From: Bacteroidia bacterium
GTDB lineage: Bacteria; Bacteroidota; Bacteroidia; B-17B0; Aurantibacillaceae
Reading direction: 5' to 3'
Assembly (NCBI GenBank): GCA_016787785.1
Contig: JAEUTO010000011.1
Coordinates: forward strand, 186,001-250,000
DNA length: 64,000 nucleotides
Below, in pieces: positions 26,072 through 57,081 of the stretch (position 1 is its first letter; every line of letters begins with the position of its first letter). Under the pieces are notes generated by a model. The model worked only from the letters and a program-made list of their open reading frames with translations, was not told the DNA's origin and searched no databases. Position numbers and translations under genes: made by a program.

Positions 26072-28369
26072 TTATCTAAGCACAACCAGTTTCTGTTTTT
26101 TAACCACTTCTTTGTTTTTACTGAGAAAAACAAAATAAACCCCTTCACTAAAGGTACTGGTATTTATGTCTTGTGAAACATTTGGCGCAATAGTTCCTCT
26201 TTTTAATTCTTTCCCTAAAACATCTGCAACCACATAAGTTGCCTCTACAAGGTCTTCGCCATTATAAAGTATACTAAAATTCTCTGTTGCAGGATTCGGA
26301 AATACAAGCAAAGAATTTTCATCTGCAGGTGAAGCGGTTCTTTTTACACCATCCCATTTACTGTTCGTGCAAATTGCATTGTCAATAGAGGTTAACTGTG
26401 CGCCATCAATAACTTTTAAAAGGCCGCCCAACATTACAGTTATGTTTGTTTCAATGCCTGTTAATTTACTATCTGCAAAACGTATCAACGTATTTTGTCC
26501 TTTTATTGTGAATACAACACCCGGATGTACCACTATTTTTCCGATCACCGTTTCAGACGAATCCCAGGTGGTATTTACAGTTAAGTCTATTACATTATTT
26601 GGTCCTGTTGTATATGTTTGCTGCGAATTACACTCGTTGTATAATTTTGCCATGTAGTTATCGTCAAAATTTCCGCTCGAATTTCCACTGATCGTATAAC
26701 CGCCATCCTGTGTTTGTGTTATCTTGTACATACATTCTTGTCGCTTCAGATCACCCGGTGGTGTTTGGCGCGGCCTTTTTTCGGCGAGGTCAAATGTTTT
26801 ACTCCAGTGTGTTGCACCGCTTGCGGTAAACTTTACAACCAAAGCATCTGTATCCCAATCAGAAAACTCTACGTCAGGACAGCCAACCAAATATCCTAAT
26901 TCCGCATCGGTTGGATAGGTATGATCTGCGCTTGGCGGTCTTACAGAACTAACTGCAATAAAACCGCCGTCATCGGTTTCCTCAACACCTATTCTAAGAT
27001 CATAGGCGTTAACATTACCCATGGGCGAGGGATTGGTTCCGTCATTTGATATCGTACCGTTTGGATTGTATCTATAAACGAAACCTTTTCCATAATTTCT
27101 TCCTGCAGAACCGCAACTCTCGCAATCGCGTACAACAGGAATTAATAACTGACCGAGTGCTTTATGGTATTTTATTTCCCATACATTTGAATTATAATTA
27201 GGGCCAACGCCAGCAATTTGTATCGGATTTTTTTTCCAGTTGGTATTAATTTCCAAATTTTGATCAACACACCAAATAAAAGCATTGTTTTGATCTTCGG
27301 CACCGGTATTGCCAAAATAATAAGTTGTTGCAATGGCATAATCGCCGGTTGAAAGTATTTCAACCAAAGAGTGTCCAATGCCTGAAGACACGTAACTCGA
27401 ACCGGCATTTGTTGTTGATGCAATGTTGCTGCCACTTAAAGGAAGTATGGTTTTTTTAAGCAGGTATCCATTCACAGGATCTATTTCCAAAAGAAAAGGG
27501 TAACCCGGACTATCATTTTTTGCGTTTAATTGCGCATAGCCAGTTGCTACTAAATTACCGTTTGAGCTTTTAATAATATCATAACCATAACTTTTACATT
27601 GATACGCTAATAGTGGCGACTGCACATAATCTATATAACCGTATAGCCCTTCCCAAATTACAACACCGGTAACAATATGGATCTTGGCAACATACAAATG
27701 ACCGATCTCATTTGTATAATTTGTAACTGCCAGCTTAGTGATAGAAAAATTATCATTGGGATTTATAGCCGTTTGATTGTAGTGCACAAAATTTACTTTA
27801 TCCTTATAGGGCCTAACGCCTAAATGCACACCAACAATATAGGCATAATCTAAATTTTGTGGATCCTGAATTACTTCTTCAATAGCGCCAACGGTTTTGG
27901 GCTTGCAGTATATCATATTACCATAAAGATCATTAAGACCAACATTGCCCCGCGAAGGTGTTCTGTGTTCGCCTACATAATCTCTATCCTCACAACCTTC
28001 GGGTAAGGTATTATAATTAAATGTTGAAGTATCAATTGGATTGTAAGGAGAATCAGGTCCTTCGTTATACATTAACTGTGCGGCAGTAAATGTTGCAGCG
28101 GTACTTACCAAATTAGTATAACCACAGGTTATATACGCTGTATGTTGCCCCGCGGCATTAAGCACATTTTTGTGACTGTACCACCACTCTTCACCGCTCT
28201 GATGCTGGCCCTGAAGTTGTCCATCAAGGCCGCGTGGCGACCAGGTAGATTTTTGCCATTCAATACCGGGCGAAAGTTGTGAATAGGAAGAAAAGAAAAT
28301 TGCAAAGAACGAACAGCACAACAAAAATTTGATGTGCGTATTTCCACCTTTCGGTGAAATGCCAGTCAT
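26072..28369 (-). CDS. Large T9SS cargo protein
   Basis: The 765-residue protein begins with a signal region (hydrophobic core FLLCCSFFAIFFSSYSQ). The body carries recurrent motifs of long secreted repeat proteins of Bacteroidota, such as GVWEIKYHKALGQLLIPVVRDCESC, GVEETDDGGFIAVSS, VVKFTASGATHWSKTFD and QTQDGGYTISGNSSG, which resemble the GG.I..G units seen in beta-propellers. Near residue 600 is a parallel-beta-like region (GKIVVHPGVVFTIKGQNTLIRF). It ends with a type A sorting domain (LVFPNPATENFSI, VADVLGKELK, FSEGVYFVFLS, KLVVLR). The start at 28369 is the first Met of the frame. It may be co-transcribed with the Kelch gene. Function unknown; the assignment as T9SS cargo is strong. Confidence 0.88.
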   Translation of the reverse strand: MTGISPKGGNTHIKFLLCCSFFAIFFSSYSQLSPGIEWQKSTWSPRGLDGQLQGQHQSGEEWWYSHKNVLNAAGQHTAYITCGYTNLVSTAATFTAAQLMYNEGPDSPYNPIDTSTFNYNTLPEGCEDRDYVGEHRTPSRGNVGLNDLYGNMIYCKPKTVGAIEEVIQDPQNLDYAYIVGVHLGVRPYKDKVNFVHYNQTAINPNDNFSITKLAVTNYTNEIGHLYVAKIHIVTGVVIWEGLYGYIDYVQSPLLAYQCKSYGYDIIKSSNGNLVATGYAQLNAKNDSPGYPFLLEIDPVNGYLLKKTILPLSGSNIASTTNAGSSYVSSGIGHSLVEILSTGDYAIATTYYFGNTGAEDQNNAFIWCVDQNLEINTNWKKNPIQIAGVGPNYNSNVWEIKYHKALGQLLIPVVRDCESCGSAGRNYGKGFVYRYNPNGTISNDGTNPSPMGNVNAYDLRIGVEETDDGGFIAVSSVRPPSADHTYPTDAELGYLVGCPDVEFSDWDTDALVVKFTASGATHWSKTFDLAEKRPRQTPPGDLKRQECMYKITQTQDGGYTISGNSSGNFDDNYMAKLYNECNSQQTYTTGPNNVIDLTVNTTWDSSETVIGKIVVHPGVVFTIKGQNTLIRFADSKLTGIETNITVMLGGLLKVIDGAQLTSIDNAICTNSKWDGVKRTASPADENSLLVFPNPATENFSILYNGEDLVEATYVVADVLGKELKRGTIAPNVSQDINTSTFSEGVYFVFLSKNKEVVKKQKLVVLR

Positions 28370-30365: not shown

Positions 30366-31655
30366 ATGAAGTACCAGCCAATTGACAATAACTTGTTTGT
30401 TGAGAACAGGAATAAATTCAAAAATAATTTAAAACCAAATTCGCTTGCAATATTTGTAAGCAACGATATTATGCCAACCAATGCCGATGGGCACATGGGC
30501 TTTAGGCAAAATAGCGATCTGTTCTATTTAAGCGGTATTGATCAGGAAGAAACAATGTTGGTTATTTTTCCGGATGTGAAAGATGGCAAGCACAAAGAAA
30601 TTTTATTTGTAAAAGAAACCAGCGAGTTAATTGCCATTTGGGAAGGTGCAAAATTAAATAAATTGCAGGCAACTGCAGTAAGTGGCATTGATCACATTTA
30701 TTGGTCGCACGATTTTTATAAAGTAATGCAGCCGTTTTTTTTCCAGGCCGAACATATTTATTTGAACTCTAACGAGCACGCAAGAAACAGTAACACTACC
30801 GAAACTGCTGAAGCTCGTTTTAATAAAATAATTCAGGCAAAGTTTCCTTTACACAAATTTGAGCGCAGCGCGCCTATCATGCACAAGATCCGTGCGCTTA
30901 AAAGCACGCAGGAAATTGATCTTATACAACAGGCCTGCGATATTACCGAGAAAGGATTCCGTCGTTTATTATCTTTTATCAAACCCGGTGTTTGGGAACA
31001 TGAGATCGAAGCAGAATTAATTCACGAATTTATTCGTAACCGCTCACAAGGTTTTGCATATGGACCAATTGTTGCAAGCGGAAAAAATGCCTGCGTGTTA
31101 CATTACGTTGAGAACAATCAACAATGTAAAGATGGTGATGTTATTTTATTAGATGTTGCGGCAGAGTACGCAAATTACGCCAGCGACCTAACGCGTTGTT
31201 TACCGGTTAACGGAAAATTCAGCAAACGTCAAAAAGAAGTTTACAATGCGGTGTTATGCGTACATAAAGCAGCTGCAAAAATGTTGTTGCCGGGCCAAAC
31301 CTTTGACAAATACAACAAAGCTATTGGTGATATGATGACCGAAGAATTGTTACAATTAGGTTTAATAAAAACCGATGACGTAAAAAAACAAAATCCTGCA
31401 TGGCCCGCTTACAAAAAATACTTTATGCATGGCACCTCTCACTTTTTAGGATTGGATGTGCATGACGTTGGATTTTTTACAGAGCCCATGCAAGCCGGTA
31501 TGGTATTTACAGTAGAGCCTGGCATTTATATTCCTGAAGAAGGTTTGGGAATACGTATTGAAAATAATTTATTGGTAACTACAACCGGGCAGTTAGACCT
31601 GATGAAGAACATTCCTATTGAAACAGATGAGATAGAGGCGTTGATGAATAAATAG
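30366..31655 (+). CDS. pepP: Xaa-Pro aminopeptidase (M24B family)
   Basis: The 429-residue enzyme has the N-terminal creatinase-like domain (GFRQNSDLFYLSGIDQEET) and the pita-bread catalytic domain with the five metal ligands: DVAAEYANYASD (two Asp), GTSHFLGLDVHDVG (His), VEPGIYIPEEG (Glu) and GIRIENNLLV (Glu). It removes N-terminal residues ahead of proline and acts in the cytoplasm using two metal ions, usually Mn. Length equals E. coli PepP (about 440). A candidate promoter precedes it; the next gene starts 47 bases downstream. Confidence in the family is high; substrate preference within it is not resolved. Confidence 0.95.
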   Translation: MKYQPIDNNLFVENRNKFKNNLKPNSLAIFVSNDIMPTNADGHMGFRQNSDLFYLSGIDQEETMLVIFPDVKDGKHKEILFVKETSELIAIWEGAKLNKLQATAVSGIDHIYWSHDFYKVMQPFFFQAEHIYLNSNEHARNSNTTETAEARFNKIIQAKFPLHKFERSAPIMHKIRALKSTQEIDLIQQACDITEKGFRRLLSFIKPGVWEHEIEAELIHEFIRNRSQGFAYGPIVASGKNACVLHYVENNQQCKDGDVILLDVAAEYANYASDLTRCLPVNGKFSKRQKEVYNAVLCVHKAAAKMLLPGQTFDKYNKAIGDMMTEELLQLGLIKTDDVKKQNPAWPAYKKYFMHGTSHFLGLDVHDVGFFTEPMQAGMVFTVEPGIYIPEEGLGIRIENNLLVTTTGQLDLMKNIPIETDEIEALMNK

Positions 31656-31702
31656 GAAGTTTGGTTTATTTTTACTACATTTAATTATCAAAAAGAGATC
31701 AA

Positions 31703-32638
31703 ATTAGTAAAAAGATCTGTTTCTTATCCTTTGCTTTTTTAATTTTTACGAAGAGTTTTTCGCAAGACCCTTTTTTTATTAATACAGATCAATCCATTAT
31801 TTATTTAAACCCTTCTTTTGCCGGCAGTAATGGAGGTATAAGAAACCAGTTTACTTACCGAAACCAATGGCCAAACACCAGCGGTAACTACGTTACCTTT
31901 GTTAATAGTTTGGATTTTTACCTTCCCAAAGTAAAAGGAGGAATTTCTGTTTTGGCGCTTCATGATGACCAGGCACACGGCACTTTAAAAACGGAGAAAC
32001 TTAGTCTGGGGTATGCCCAGCAGCTTTCCTTATTTGATGGGAAGTTAAAACTAATTCCCTCTTTACAACTGAGTTATTTTGAGAAAAATCTTGACACACG
32101 AAAACTCAATTTCGGCTCTTATATAAATCCTCGCCGTGGTTTTGCTTGGAGTCCTTACACAATTCCAAATACTAAAAAGCAAAACATTGATTTTAGCGCC
32201 GGCTTATTGTCGAACTATAAAAACTTTTATTTGGGTACAGCTATTTTTCATATTAACCAGCCTGATGAAGGTTTATTGGGCGTAAGTAAATTACCTTATA
32301 GATTACTGATTCATAGTTCTTACAATTTGCATGTTTCAGAAAAAACGGTTTTTAACCTTTTTGCACGATTTGAAAAGCAGCAGAATTTTGAAGGCCTAAG
32401 TTTAAATATGAAAGCATTGCTGTTTAAACATCTTATTCTCGGCGCCGGATGCACTTCCGACAATCTTGCTAATTTTAACTTTGGTTACAGGAATAATTTT
32501 TTTGTAGTTTCTTTGGGCTACGATATGTCAAAATTTAGATTACTTGATAACTATACAGGCTCATGGGAATTTATGGCCAGCTTTAATCTTCGCAACAAAG
32601 AACAAAGAAAGACACTCACCGATTTTGAAAAATGGTAA
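31703..32638 (+). CDS. PorP/SprF family T9SS outer-membrane protein, with non-AUG (ATT) start
   Basis: The 311-codon frame from 31703 encodes a complete signal peptide (ISKKICFLSFAFLIF, cleavage near KSFSQ) and then DPFFINTDQSIIYLNPSFAGSN, GIRNQFTYRNQWPNTSGNYVTF, VDFYLPKVKGGISVLALHDDQAHGT-like segments, matching the start of PorP/SprF proteins. PorP/SprF are outer-membrane partners of the T9SS translocon or of gliding adhesins. An in-frame stop (TAA at 31682) lies 21 bases upstream and no ATG, GTG or TTG occurs between it and the signal peptide, so the start must be a near-cognate codon: ATT at 31703 fits best. A TTG at 31910 would remove the signal peptide. A strong bidirectional terminator follows. 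Confidence 0.78.
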   Translation: MSKKICFLSFAFLIFTKSFSQDPFFINTDQSIIYLNPSFAGSNGGIRNQFTYRNQWPNTSGNYVTFVNSLDFYLPKVKGGISVLALHDDQAHGTLKTEKLSLGYAQQLSLFDGKLKLIPSLQLSYFEKNLDTRKLNFGSYINPRRGFAWSPYTIPNTKKQNIDFSAGLLSNYKNFYLGTAIFHINQPDEGLLGVSKLPYRLLIHSSYNLHVSEKTVFNLFARFEKQQNFEGLSLNMKALLFKHLILGAGCTSDNLANFNFGYRNNFFVVSLGYDMSKFRLLDNYTGSWEFMASFNLRNKEQRKTLTDFEKW

Positions 32639-32641
32639 AAT

Positions 32642-32675
32642 AAAAAAGCCGCATAAAATTATGCGGCTTTTTGTT
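32642..32675. terminator. Bidirectional Rho-independent terminator
   Basis: AAAAAGCCGCATAA pairs with TTATGCGGCTTTTT around a two-base loop, with A and T runs on both sides. It sits between the PorP-like gene and the convergent channel gene at 32691. Confidence 0.93.
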
Positions 32676-53889: not shown

Positions 53890-56800
53890 TCAAACAATTT
53901 TTAAACCAATAACCAAAAGATCATCCACCTGTTCGTGCGGACCCATCCAGTTATTTATTTTATCTGCAACGAGCGTCTTTTGTTTTTCAGATGGTAGCGT
54001 AGAAATTTCTTGCAAAAAGGCCTTCATGTTCTTGGCCATAAATTTTTTTCCGTCCGGTCCGCCAAACTGATCAGGGAAACCGTCACTTGTCATGTAAATA
54101 GAATCATTTACATCTAAAGTGATTTCGTGTTGCTGGTACTCAAAATTATATTCTGTAAAACTGGCCACGCTTGCCTTGGTTGGTTTTACCTCAACAAATT
54201 CTTTAGTGCCTGCTTTTATGATCCACATTGGGCGATGCGCGCCGGTGTAGGAAACTTTTCTTTCTTTGATGTTATATTTTATCAACGCAATTTCCATTCC
54301 GTCTTTCGATTTGCCATCCGACTCCACATTTTGTTTTAAAACATCTTTAATGGCGTTGTTTGCTAAAAACAAGATCTTAGCAGGTTCATTCGTTTCAAAA
54401 CAAGCTTCGGATAATTTATTTGAACAGATCATGCTCATAAAAGCACCCGGCACACCGTGACCCGTGCAATCGGCGCAAGCAATTAAAAACTCGTTATTGT
54501 TTATTTTAAAGAACCAATAAAAATCGCCGCTTACAATATCTTTTGGCTGGAAGAAAATAAAACCTTCGTGATAGGTATTGTCAATTTCTTTTAAAGACGG
54601 CAACACAGATTCCTGAATGCGTTGCGCGTAATTGATACTGTCGGTAATTTCTTTTTTCTGATCGGCCAATAAATGTACTTGCTCTTCGATCGTAGCGGTA
54701 CGCAATTTAACGGTCTCTTCCAGTTTTATATTCTGCGATTTTAAACGTTTGGTGTACATGCGCACAACCAAATAAATAAATAAACAGAAAACAATAAAAT
54801 AAAAAGCATAAGCCCAATAGGTACGATACCATGGCGAAAGAATGGTAAATGAAAAATTAATTTCTTTAATATCGTTAGAAAAAGCATTGCGTGCTTTTAA
54901 ATAAAAAGTATAATCTCCTTCGTGTAAATTATCATATTTAAATTCTTTATTTTTTTTCCAGTCACTATAGTTATCTTCCTTTCCCTTTAAGTAGTAACTA
55001 AATTCGGTTAAATTATTATCTTCAAAACTGGTAAAGCCGGGAAGGATCCTGATATCATTTTTTGAATACGTGATCTTTAGATCAAGGATCTTATTGGATT
55101 CAAATATGTTTTGTATTACGGTGTCTGCGCGGGCTTCAACACTGCTTATAAAAAGTGCATAATCTCTTTTTACGTCGTTTAACTCGCCGTTCAAAAGAAA
55201 CAAACCTTCATCGCATGAAATAAACAATTGCTTGCCCGTGCTATCGTAACTTATTAAATTGGCCTTAATGTATTTTAAATGGTTTAAACTACTGTTTATT
55301 TTTACGAAGCCGTTTTTTTGCTTTTTTAAGTAAATACTTTTATGCGAGTAATCGCTCGTTATGGAATTCTTATCGTTTAGATTGCAGATAATATCACCTT
55401 GAAATTCGGACGCTCGGAATATCTGTCCTGAATTTGTCAAATTCCAAAGTTGCGGGTCTTTTACACAAACAAACTTGTTGTTAGCTCTTTCTTCTAACGA
55501 ATAAATTCCGGGGTCGGTTCCAATTAGTAACTTTCTATTATAGCTAAATACATAATTCTCTTTAAGATCAGGTAAACCGTCTTTCAATTGCAGCGAATCC
55601 AATAAATACGAATTCTTATAATTTAAAAAGTAAATTCCTTTATCGCTTGTGCCAAAATAAATATTCTTATTATCATCACTTGCTAAACTTCTTACGTCGG
55701 TATTAAGTATATAACTTTTTATGTAACTGGTATTCTCGCCCGAAATATTTAAAACGTCTACACCATTATCGTGCCCGCAATACAAAACGTTTGGCTGGTA
55801 AGGGTCGTTCAGCATATAATAAATTGTGCCGTACTCGCTTTGGTGCACAGGCTTAATGGTTTTGCCATTATAAACATATAAGCCGCTGTTGGCCGAAAAG
55901 AAAAGTTTGTTCTGATAATTTAAAATGTACCAGGTTTGCTCGTTAAAATTATTAAGTTGTTTAAAGAGATAATCTTTTGAGTCGAAATAAAAAACACCTT
56001 TATCTGTAGCAATGTACAAAACGTTATTGTATACAGCCGAAGATTGAACAACGCCATTGATACCATTCTTACGTGTAAACTTTCTTAATGGAGATTTAAC
56101 CTCCACAAAAGAAACACCATAATTTAAAGCCAGCCAAATATTACCATTAACATCTTCATAACCGCCTTTTACATTCTCGTCATAAATACCGGTTTTACTG
56201 TTTAATTTGCTAATGATAGCAAGATCTTTGTTTAAAATAAATGCGCCTGCTTTATTTGAAGTAACAACAAAATTGCCATTACTAAGCGGGAAACCATTTA
56301 CGATCTCTGCCTCTATCAGATCTTTGTTGCATGGAGCATTTGTCACCTGCTTAAACTCTGTAAGTTCAGGATTTGTTGCATTATAATTTGCTGTATAAAT
56401 ACCTAAGCCCCTAAAACCAACAGCGTAGTGTGTGTTGCTAATCTTGTAAGTAAAATAATATTTACTTGTTGCTAACTCTTCGCTTTTAATTACCGGTTTT
56501 AAAATGCCGTTGCTAAGCACTAAAAAATTATTATCAATATCTTCTACAAAAATATGATCGCCCATAATAAGCGGCCTGATGTGAAAACGGTTAACAGGCA
56601 TAAAGTTTTTAAATTCGCCATTTGCATATTCAATTAAGACTTCTTCTGATAAAAAATAAATTTTATCATTTAGAGGATAGATAAATTTTATAGGTTCTGT
56701 TGGTTTAAAATTTCCGGGAAGGTTATCCTTGAAAGAAAAAAAGCGATAGATGCCACGCGGGTCGCGATTAAAAATACCGAAGTCGCCATTATCACAACCA

Positions 56801-57081
56801 ATAAAGATCTCGTTCTGTTTTGAAATAGCAATACTTGTAACCGTTGGTTCGTTCTTATTTAATTTTATGGTACGCCAGTTATAACCATCGTAAATTAAAA
56901 CACCGGCACTGTTAGCTGAAAAAATAAGACCTTCTTTATTTTGAACGATACCGAAATTGGTGTTTCCGGCGTTATATTCTTTAGGTAAATAATTATTTAT
57001 AAAAAATTCGCCGGCTTGTGGCAGTGCTTTAAAACAAAACACTACCGATAGAAAAAGTAAATATTTTTTTAGGCCTTTCAG
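53890..57081 (-). CDS. Two-component-propeller sensor with SpoIIE-type phosphatase, CTG start
   Basis: The 1063-codon frame from 57081 begins with a complete signal peptide (KGLKKYLLFLSVVFCFKALPQ). A GTG at 57042 would cut it to FCFKALPQAG, which is not an export signal, and no ATG or TTG lies between the upstream stop and the hydrophobic core, so CTG at 57081 is the best start. The body has a beta-propeller of two-component-regulator type (GLIFSANSAGVLIYDGYNW, IFIGCDNGDFGIF, VLYIATDKGVFYF, NIYFGTSDKGIYF), a Y_Y_Y-like segment (GFTSFEDNNLTEFSYYLKG), one membrane helix near 770-795 (YFIVFCLFIYLVV) and a C-terminal SpoIIE/PP2C domain (SGDFYWFF, ADCTGHGVPGAFMS, DGMEIALI, HEQVDDLLVIGLKIV). It is a paralogue in domain plan of the 44238 phosphatase. 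Confidence 0.85.
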   Translation of the reverse strand: MKGLKKYLLFLSVVFCFKALPQAGEFFINNYLPKEYNAGNTNFGIVQNKEGLIFSANSAGVLIYDGYNWRTIKLNKNEPTVTSIAISKQNEIFIGCDNGDFGIFNRDPRGIYRFFSFKDNLPGNFKPTEPIKFIYPLNDKIYFLSEEVLIEYANGEFKNFMPVNRFHIRPLIMGDHIFVEDIDNNFLVLSNGILKPVIKSEELATSKYYFTYKISNTHYAVGFRGLGIYTANYNATNPELTEFKQVTNAPCNKDLIEAEIVNGFPLSNGNFVVTSNKAGAFILNKDLAIISKLNSKTGIYDENVKGGYEDVNGNIWLALNYGVSFVEVKSPLRKFTRKNGINGVVQSSAVYNNVLYIATDKGVFYFDSKDYLFKQLNNFNEQTWYILNYQNKLFFSANSGLYVYNGKTIKPVHQSEYGTIYYMLNDPYQPNVLYCGHDNGVDVLNISGENTSYIKSYILNTDVRSLASDDNKNIYFGTSDKGIYFLNYKNSYLLDSLQLKDGLPDLKENYVFSYNRKLLIGTDPGIYSLEERANNKFVCVKDPQLWNLTNSGQIFRASEFQGDIICNLNDKNSITSDYSHKSIYLKKQKNGFVKINSSLNHLKYIKANLISYDSTGKQLFISCDEGLFLLNGELNDVKRDYALFISSVEARADTVIQNIFESNKILDLKITYSKNDIRILPGFTSFEDNNLTEFSYYLKGKEDNYSDWKKNKEFKYDNLHEGDYTFYLKARNAFSNDIKEINFSFTILSPWYRTYWAYAFYFIVFCLFIYLVVRMYTKRLKSQNIKLEETVKLRTATIEEQVHLLADQKKEITDSINYAQRIQESVLPSLKEIDNTYHEGFIFFQPKDIVSGDFYWFFKINNNEFLIACADCTGHGVPGAFMSMICSNKLSEACFETNEPAKILFLANNAIKDVLKQNVESDGKSKDGMEIALIKYNIKERKVSYTGAHRPMWIIKAGTKEFVEVKPTKASVASFTEYNFEYQQHEITLDVNDSIYMTSDGFPDQFGGPDGKKFMAKNMKAFLQEISTLPSEKQKTLVADKINNWMGPHEQVDDLLVIGLKIV

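Follow-up and report, generated by a model that had tools for sequence, protein, structure and literature searches.

The window, the whole 64,000-nucleotide stretch analysed here (contig JAEUTO010000011.1 of Bacteroidia bacterium assembly GCA_016787785.1, genome G000 below), carries on its plus strand a PorP/SprF frame at 31685-32638 that stays open over 317 codons up to a TAA at 32636-32638, with no other stop or frameshift inside. As the initial annotation had described, an in-frame TAA lies just upstream at 31682-31684, no in-frame ATG, GTG or TTG occurs at 31685-31909, and an ATT, the proposed start codon, is present at 31703-31705. Translation from 31703 gives ISKKICFLSFAFLIFTKSFSQDP; the residues directly after the ATT are S-K-K-I-C and not K-K-I-C, the initial annotation having omitted the serine (AGT at 31706). 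The likely signal peptide, ISKKICFLSFAFLIFTKSFS, occupies 31703-31762, its cleavage site being placed from homologues, and is followed by the predicted mature outer-membrane barrel at 31763-32635. The first usual in-frame start codon is the TTG at 31910-31912, and beginning there would indeed cost the signal peptide and the conserved N-terminal region, dropping 69 codons, among them an NPSFAGSNGG block that the alignment shows to be common to many relatives. The plus strand is free of ATG codons in all three frames from 31645 to 31829, and the next ones, at 31830 and 31867, are both out of the PorP frame.

The gene upstream, at 30366-31655 on the same strand, encodes an aminopeptidase P family protein with AMP_N and Peptidase_M24 domains (PF05195, E 4.7e-29; PF00557, E 8.7e-61) and ends 47 nt before the ATT; the same peptidase DNA precedes the A-type PorP copies of two related genomes, G003 and G031. 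The downstream neighbour is a convergent gene for a Castor/Pollux-type (ion-channel) protein, and a terminator-like hairpin of 13 pairs, scored on the minus strand, lies between the two genes at 32643-32672. Between the peptidase gene and the ATT, TACATTTA at 31677-31684 on the plus strand is identical in the aligned A-type leaders of G003 and G031; it resembles the Bacteroidota -7 box (consensus TAnnTTTG) and is a candidate for one. Elsewhere in the window, a large exported protein is encoded at 26072-28369 on the minus strand, and its product ends in a stretch that may be a type IX sorting domain.

Two profiles place the window protein in the PorP/SprF family of outer-membrane proteins of the type IX secretion system, both beyond their curated cut-offs: PF11751 (E 1.1e-30, 107.6 bits against a cut-off of 22.3, residues 20-294) and TIGR03519 (E 1.7e-38, 132.8 bits against 90.55). 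The protein is like the family in matching over nearly its whole length and in having a signal peptide, whose n-region SKK, hydrophobic core and SFSQDP align with relatives provided that the start lies at or before 31703. It differs from the family in its unusual start codon and its mosaic make-up. PorP-like proteins have been described to bind or shuttle type B CTD cargo (PMC9143113, PMC12618676).

The initial annotation had proposed comparing the codon with that of close relatives, and this comparison placed an ATG at exactly the 31703 codon. A protein search of 40 genomes of the genus, G000 included, found a match in 39, again including G000. An ATG was present at the signal-peptide start in all 28 resolved same-genus relatives (29 loci were fetched and L032 was left out; the more distant of the 28 are other PorP subtypes), and the second PorP copy of G003, read from a stretch, also starts with ATG. 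The leader is near-identical in two species that have ATG at this codon (G031, CAAATGAGTAAAAAG; G003 copy A, CCAATGAGTAAAAAG), and the longer alignment of G031 CAAATGAGTAAAAAGATCTGTTTCTTA, G003 copy A CCAATGAGTAAAAAGATCTGTTTCTTA and the window CAAATTAGTAAAAAGATCTGTTTCTTA shows that the window leader carries an extra base some 8 nt before the ATT, plus other substitutions. The homologues place the window start exactly at the ATT, as expected of a gene starting with AUU; the ATT itself was found in one genome only and, unlike the near-cognate start of infC in this genus, is not conserved among orthologues. Since the relatives have ATG at precisely this codon, the start has not moved; its codon differs, and the alignment marks the difference as a G-to-T change of an ancestral ATG. 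A search of related contigs for a second genome of the same species gave none, only three related loci at 61-68% identity (G003, G009 and G023). Of the two options first offered, real use of ATT and a base error, the former is taken as the more probable on the evidence weighed below.

The gene is also a single mosaic, as judged by identity, informative sites and a protein tree: its front is of type A and its body of type B. Two PorP copies, A and B, stand in tandem behind the peptidase gene of G003, against one in G031. In the signal region, the window DNA is 94-96% identical to G003 copy A and G031 (96% to copy A) and 84% identical to G003 copy B, while in the mature part it is 62% identical to copy A and 69% to copy B. 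Positions that distinguish A from B favour A by 31 to 7 in the leader and signal peptide, and favour B by 164 to 104 in the mature part (nominal Fisher p = 8e-7, the sites being non-independent); these counts are to be read with caution, as what precedes copy B is the final part of copy A, so that those columns are not true counterparts. In the protein tree, the mature part of the window protein groups with G003 copy B, G023, G009, G010A and L017 (support 90/91, below the starred level). The sequence changes type near the point where the signal peptide would be cleaved, which lies 3′ of the ATT; by itself this does not account for the codon change. The two tandem copies at G003:C2:206744-208649 (L039), set against the single A/B mosaic at 31703-32638 of the window, suggest copy turnover at the PorP locus.

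The body of the gene is intact, and its sequence looks constrained. Values of pN/pS were 0.30-0.39 in seven comparisons that include the window gene and 0.12-0.41 in 21 pairs without it, a weak test here with synonymous sites near saturation. The window branch of the protein tree (0.33) is longer than those of G003 copy B (0.22) and G023 (0.23) and shorter than that of L017 (0.58). A recent loss of the start would leave no trace in either test.

Near-cognate starts were surveyed in 383 of the 385 reciprocal-best gene pairs between the window's own contig (C14) and contig C2 of G003, looking for a conserved N-terminus that lacks a usual start; cases were picked out by visual inspection, which would miss any gene that happens to have a usual start codon upstream. 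The yield was five near-cognate genes, one ambiguous gene and prfB, a programmed frameshift gene, which was recovered with its TGA before GGFFDYDRKKHDLELLEEKTLDP. Two of the five lie in the window, which wholly contains 36 of the pairs: the PorP gene and a second gene. The latter, at 53890-57081 on the minus strand, encodes a Reg_prop/Y_Y_Y/SpoIIE protein, as read from its domains, and in the alignment has CTG at 57079-57081 where four close relatives have TTG (more distant relatives, L115-L117 and L130, have ATG, GTG or TTG near the start and were left uncounted). The next usual start of this gene, a GTG, falls within its likely signal peptide.

Other genes of the contig share their near-cognate starts across species. 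A TPR-SpoIIE gene on the minus strand (L080, G000:C14:344108-346264) has AUU in six of six species (L080 and L081-L085), with no ATG, GTG or TTG before the signal peptide; the remote paralogues L086 and L094 (at most 33% identity; ATG or TTG) were left uncounted. Its likely start lies in a conserved AAT-ATT, and a second conserved ATT stands six codons upstream. A small exported protein, also on the minus strand (L230, G000:C14:482284-483045), has CTG at 9 of the 12 loci that could be resolved, out of 13 (L238 was left out); a tandem second copy is present in G000 at C14:483160-483918. Orthologue comparison likewise gave a CUG start for a GT2 glycosyltransferase gene on the plus strand (L210, G000:C14:422842-424806): the 26 genus loci have CTG (20), TTG (3), GTG (1) or a usual start just upstream (2), and 14 loci of other genera have GTG (12) or ATG (2). 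Inspection of the GT2 rows extended 14 codons upstream or as far as the stop codon. A further candidate, G000:C14:508171-511113 (ATT CAA TTA), was dropped when its orthologues disagreed on the start codon.

As a positive control, infC was fetched from 30 genus loci, of which 28 were resolved (L157 and L164 were left out). AUC or AUU is the start codon at 27 of these 28, with AUC in G000; the exception, L135, has ATG and belongs to a genome with two infC copies, of which it is the second. The near-cognate codon of infC follows a strong Shine-Dalgarno motif (GCGGAGG or ACGGAGG), as in L162, L160, L158, L155 and others. Within the PorP/SprF family itself, the 17 starts in G000 comprise 13 ATG, two TTG, one ATA and the one ATT. 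The ATA gene, on the plus strand (L250, G000:C6:5010-5909), was also identified by orthologue comparison: the 16 closest genus loci have ATA (7), ATT (5), ATC (3) or TTG (1), that is, AUH in 15 of 16, and 14 more distant genus loci, placed by eye, have TTG (9), ATG (2), GTG (1) or no usual start (2), with ATG in nine and GTG in one of ten loci from other genera. Starts of the GT2 and AUH PorP loci were placed by eye, the least certain being L258, L260 and L264, and an in-frame usual start occurs further upstream in at least L219, L220 and L225 (GT2) and L252, L255, L257 and L264 (AUH PorP). On these comparisons, near-cognate initiation is a recurrent feature of the genus and is long-lived in some genes. 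To call ATT starts rare outside infC of E. coli is too strong for this genus, where other genes repeatedly show AUU, AUC, AUA and CUG starts and conserve them.

The sequence around the window ATT is not that of a strong start. It has C at -3 and G at -6, and its Shine-Dalgarno-like match scores -2.9 kcal/mol against an anti-Shine-Dalgarno sequence that we assumed for all duplex scores (a pattern search for the 16S 3′ end of G000 gave no match); this value is reached or bettered by 11% of 342 ATG starts, whose mean is -0.29. In the ATG-started relative G031, -3 and -6 are likewise C and G, which makes this context an inherited one. By comparison, infC scored -9.5 kcal/mol (four of five loci matched at the right site; L161 matched at a wrong one), 11 of 13 resolved AUH PorP loci scored -4.0 kcal/mol or lower, and the TPR-SpoIIE AUU had A at both -3 and -6 in five of five resolved loci, against 54% and 35% of ATG starts; among 17 GT2 CUG loci, four had A at -3 and one scored -4.0 or lower. 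L258, L260, L081 and all eight a289 loci were left out of the context scoring where the pattern missed them. An A at -3 is reported as a positive determinant of initiation in Flavobacterium johnsoniae, and Shine-Dalgarno sequences are reported to be missing from Bacteroidota (PMC6847099), although infC in this genus carries a strong one. Given the C at -3, the G at -6 and the weak -2.9 match, low initiation at best would be expected at the ATT, despite the ATG-free stretch at 31645-31829.

Several other features of the leader were considered. A gain of Shine-Dalgarno pairing through the one-base insertion was rejected, the duplex moving only from -1.5 (G031) to -2.9, within background, and a start-codon hairpin was also rejected (z-score 0.12, not above shuffles). 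No sigma-70-type promoter was predicted on the plus strand between 31660 and 31700, and the 6 predicted sites compare with 4.8 in shuffles. A search of the window's own contig for an initiator tRNA that could account for lax initiation found four tRNAs, and the anticodon stem of the sole Met tRNA does not have the GGG/CCC pairs typical of initiators.

We consider the most probable explanation, at roughly 55%, to be a real, lineage-specific change of start codon with reduced initiation at AUU. The ancestral ATG at 31703 would have become ATT by a single G-to-T change in the lineage of G000, and ribosomes would still use the AUU, which initiator Met-tRNA would read, though less efficiently. The full-length preprotein with its signal peptide would then be made in small amounts and might serve type B CTD cargo as a shuttle or anchor, the role that PorP-like proteins have elsewhere (PMC9143113, PMC12618676). 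With 17 family members in the genome, a reduced output from one copy could be tolerable.

That same redundancy also fits a recent loss of function, in which the gene is an incipient pseudogene whose start loss was tolerated given its many paralogues and frequent gain and loss of copies at the locus. The restriction of the ATT to one genome, the weak initiation context, the variable copy number (two in G003, one in G031), the mosaic gene and the somewhat long branch are all consistent with such a loss; we nevertheless regard it as unlikely, as the frame has no other stop or frameshift, its pN/pS lies inside the range of intact relatives, and near-cognate starts serve other genes of the genus. 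An ATG misread as ATT in the assembly is less probable still. It would equally produce a single-base change in one genome, and both lineage-specific losses of a usual start in the survey (the PorP ATT and the CTG at 57079-57081) are in G000, with none clear in G003. Against such an error, the region has diverged, its leader differing from those of relatives by the inserted base and by substitutions, and few genes are disrupted over the 385 pairs (about 456 kb aligned), a measure that tests indels better than substitutions and that badly broken genes may escape by not being paired; only 2 of the 385 pairs have more than 40 unaligned C-terminal residues, so frameshifts look rare. It is very improbable that translation starts elsewhere, at another near-cognate leader codon or by coupling to the peptidase gene, with 31703 read as isoleucine: the peptidase gene does end only 47 nt before and the leader does hold other non-standard codons, but the n-region S-K-K directly follows the ATT as it follows the ATG of relatives, and the upstream leader is not conserved as protein, a one-base difference shifting its frame relative to theirs.

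A reduced but real AUU start has precedents elsewhere. AUU starts have been described for infC and pcnB of E. coli, tied to lowered or regulated expression (PMC1780047, PMC13009471), and have been inferred for lepA in two species (PMC1780047). In S. aureus, cvfC1 starts with AUU, and ccpN, citZ and infC with AUA; in poor medium, reporters with the cvfC1, ccpN and citZ sites reached about 10% of the level seen with AUG, and the non-canonical start of citZ is lineage-specific, being found in NCTC 8325 lineage strains (PMC13009471). The window gene resembles infC and pcnB in its AUU start codon, and the S. aureus genes in that they use AUU or AUA, in one case (citZ) as a lineage-specific start. 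It differs in that infC and pcnB are published bench cases, whereas the window ATT is a putative start, changed in a single genome and with a weak Shine-Dalgarno-like match, and in that the S. aureus sites have extended Shine-Dalgarno motifs (PMC13009471) where the window leader offers the weak match only. For Bacteroidota, a literature search, largely at title level, found no paper on near-cognate starts, and a search of PMC6847099 for AUU, AUA, CUG and non-AUG gave no match. An AUU start as such is thus already known, and what differs here is its recurrence in a genus of Bacteroidota, partly without help from Shine-Dalgarno pairing.

This genus-wide pattern is more interesting than the window gene itself. 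We tentatively propose, at a little under even odds, that the genus uses near-cognate starts (AUU, AUA, AUC and CUG) in at least about 1% of its genes, a rough lower bound, and that selection keeps them in specific genes, the codons drifting within AUA/AUU/AUC or within CUG/UUG/GUG and seldom returning to AUG, with low and possibly IF3-responsive expression; the window PorP gene would be a recent entrant to this set. Gene callers that accept only ATG, GTG and TTG would truncate or drop such genes, with loss of the secretion signal peptide in the present case and of the conserved start of the glycosyltransferase domain in GT2. If selection does hold near-cognate starts in a mostly Shine-Dalgarno-free lineage, these genes would allow the relative weight of start codon and context to be tested in nature, and likewise whether the level of IF3 links a set of genes.
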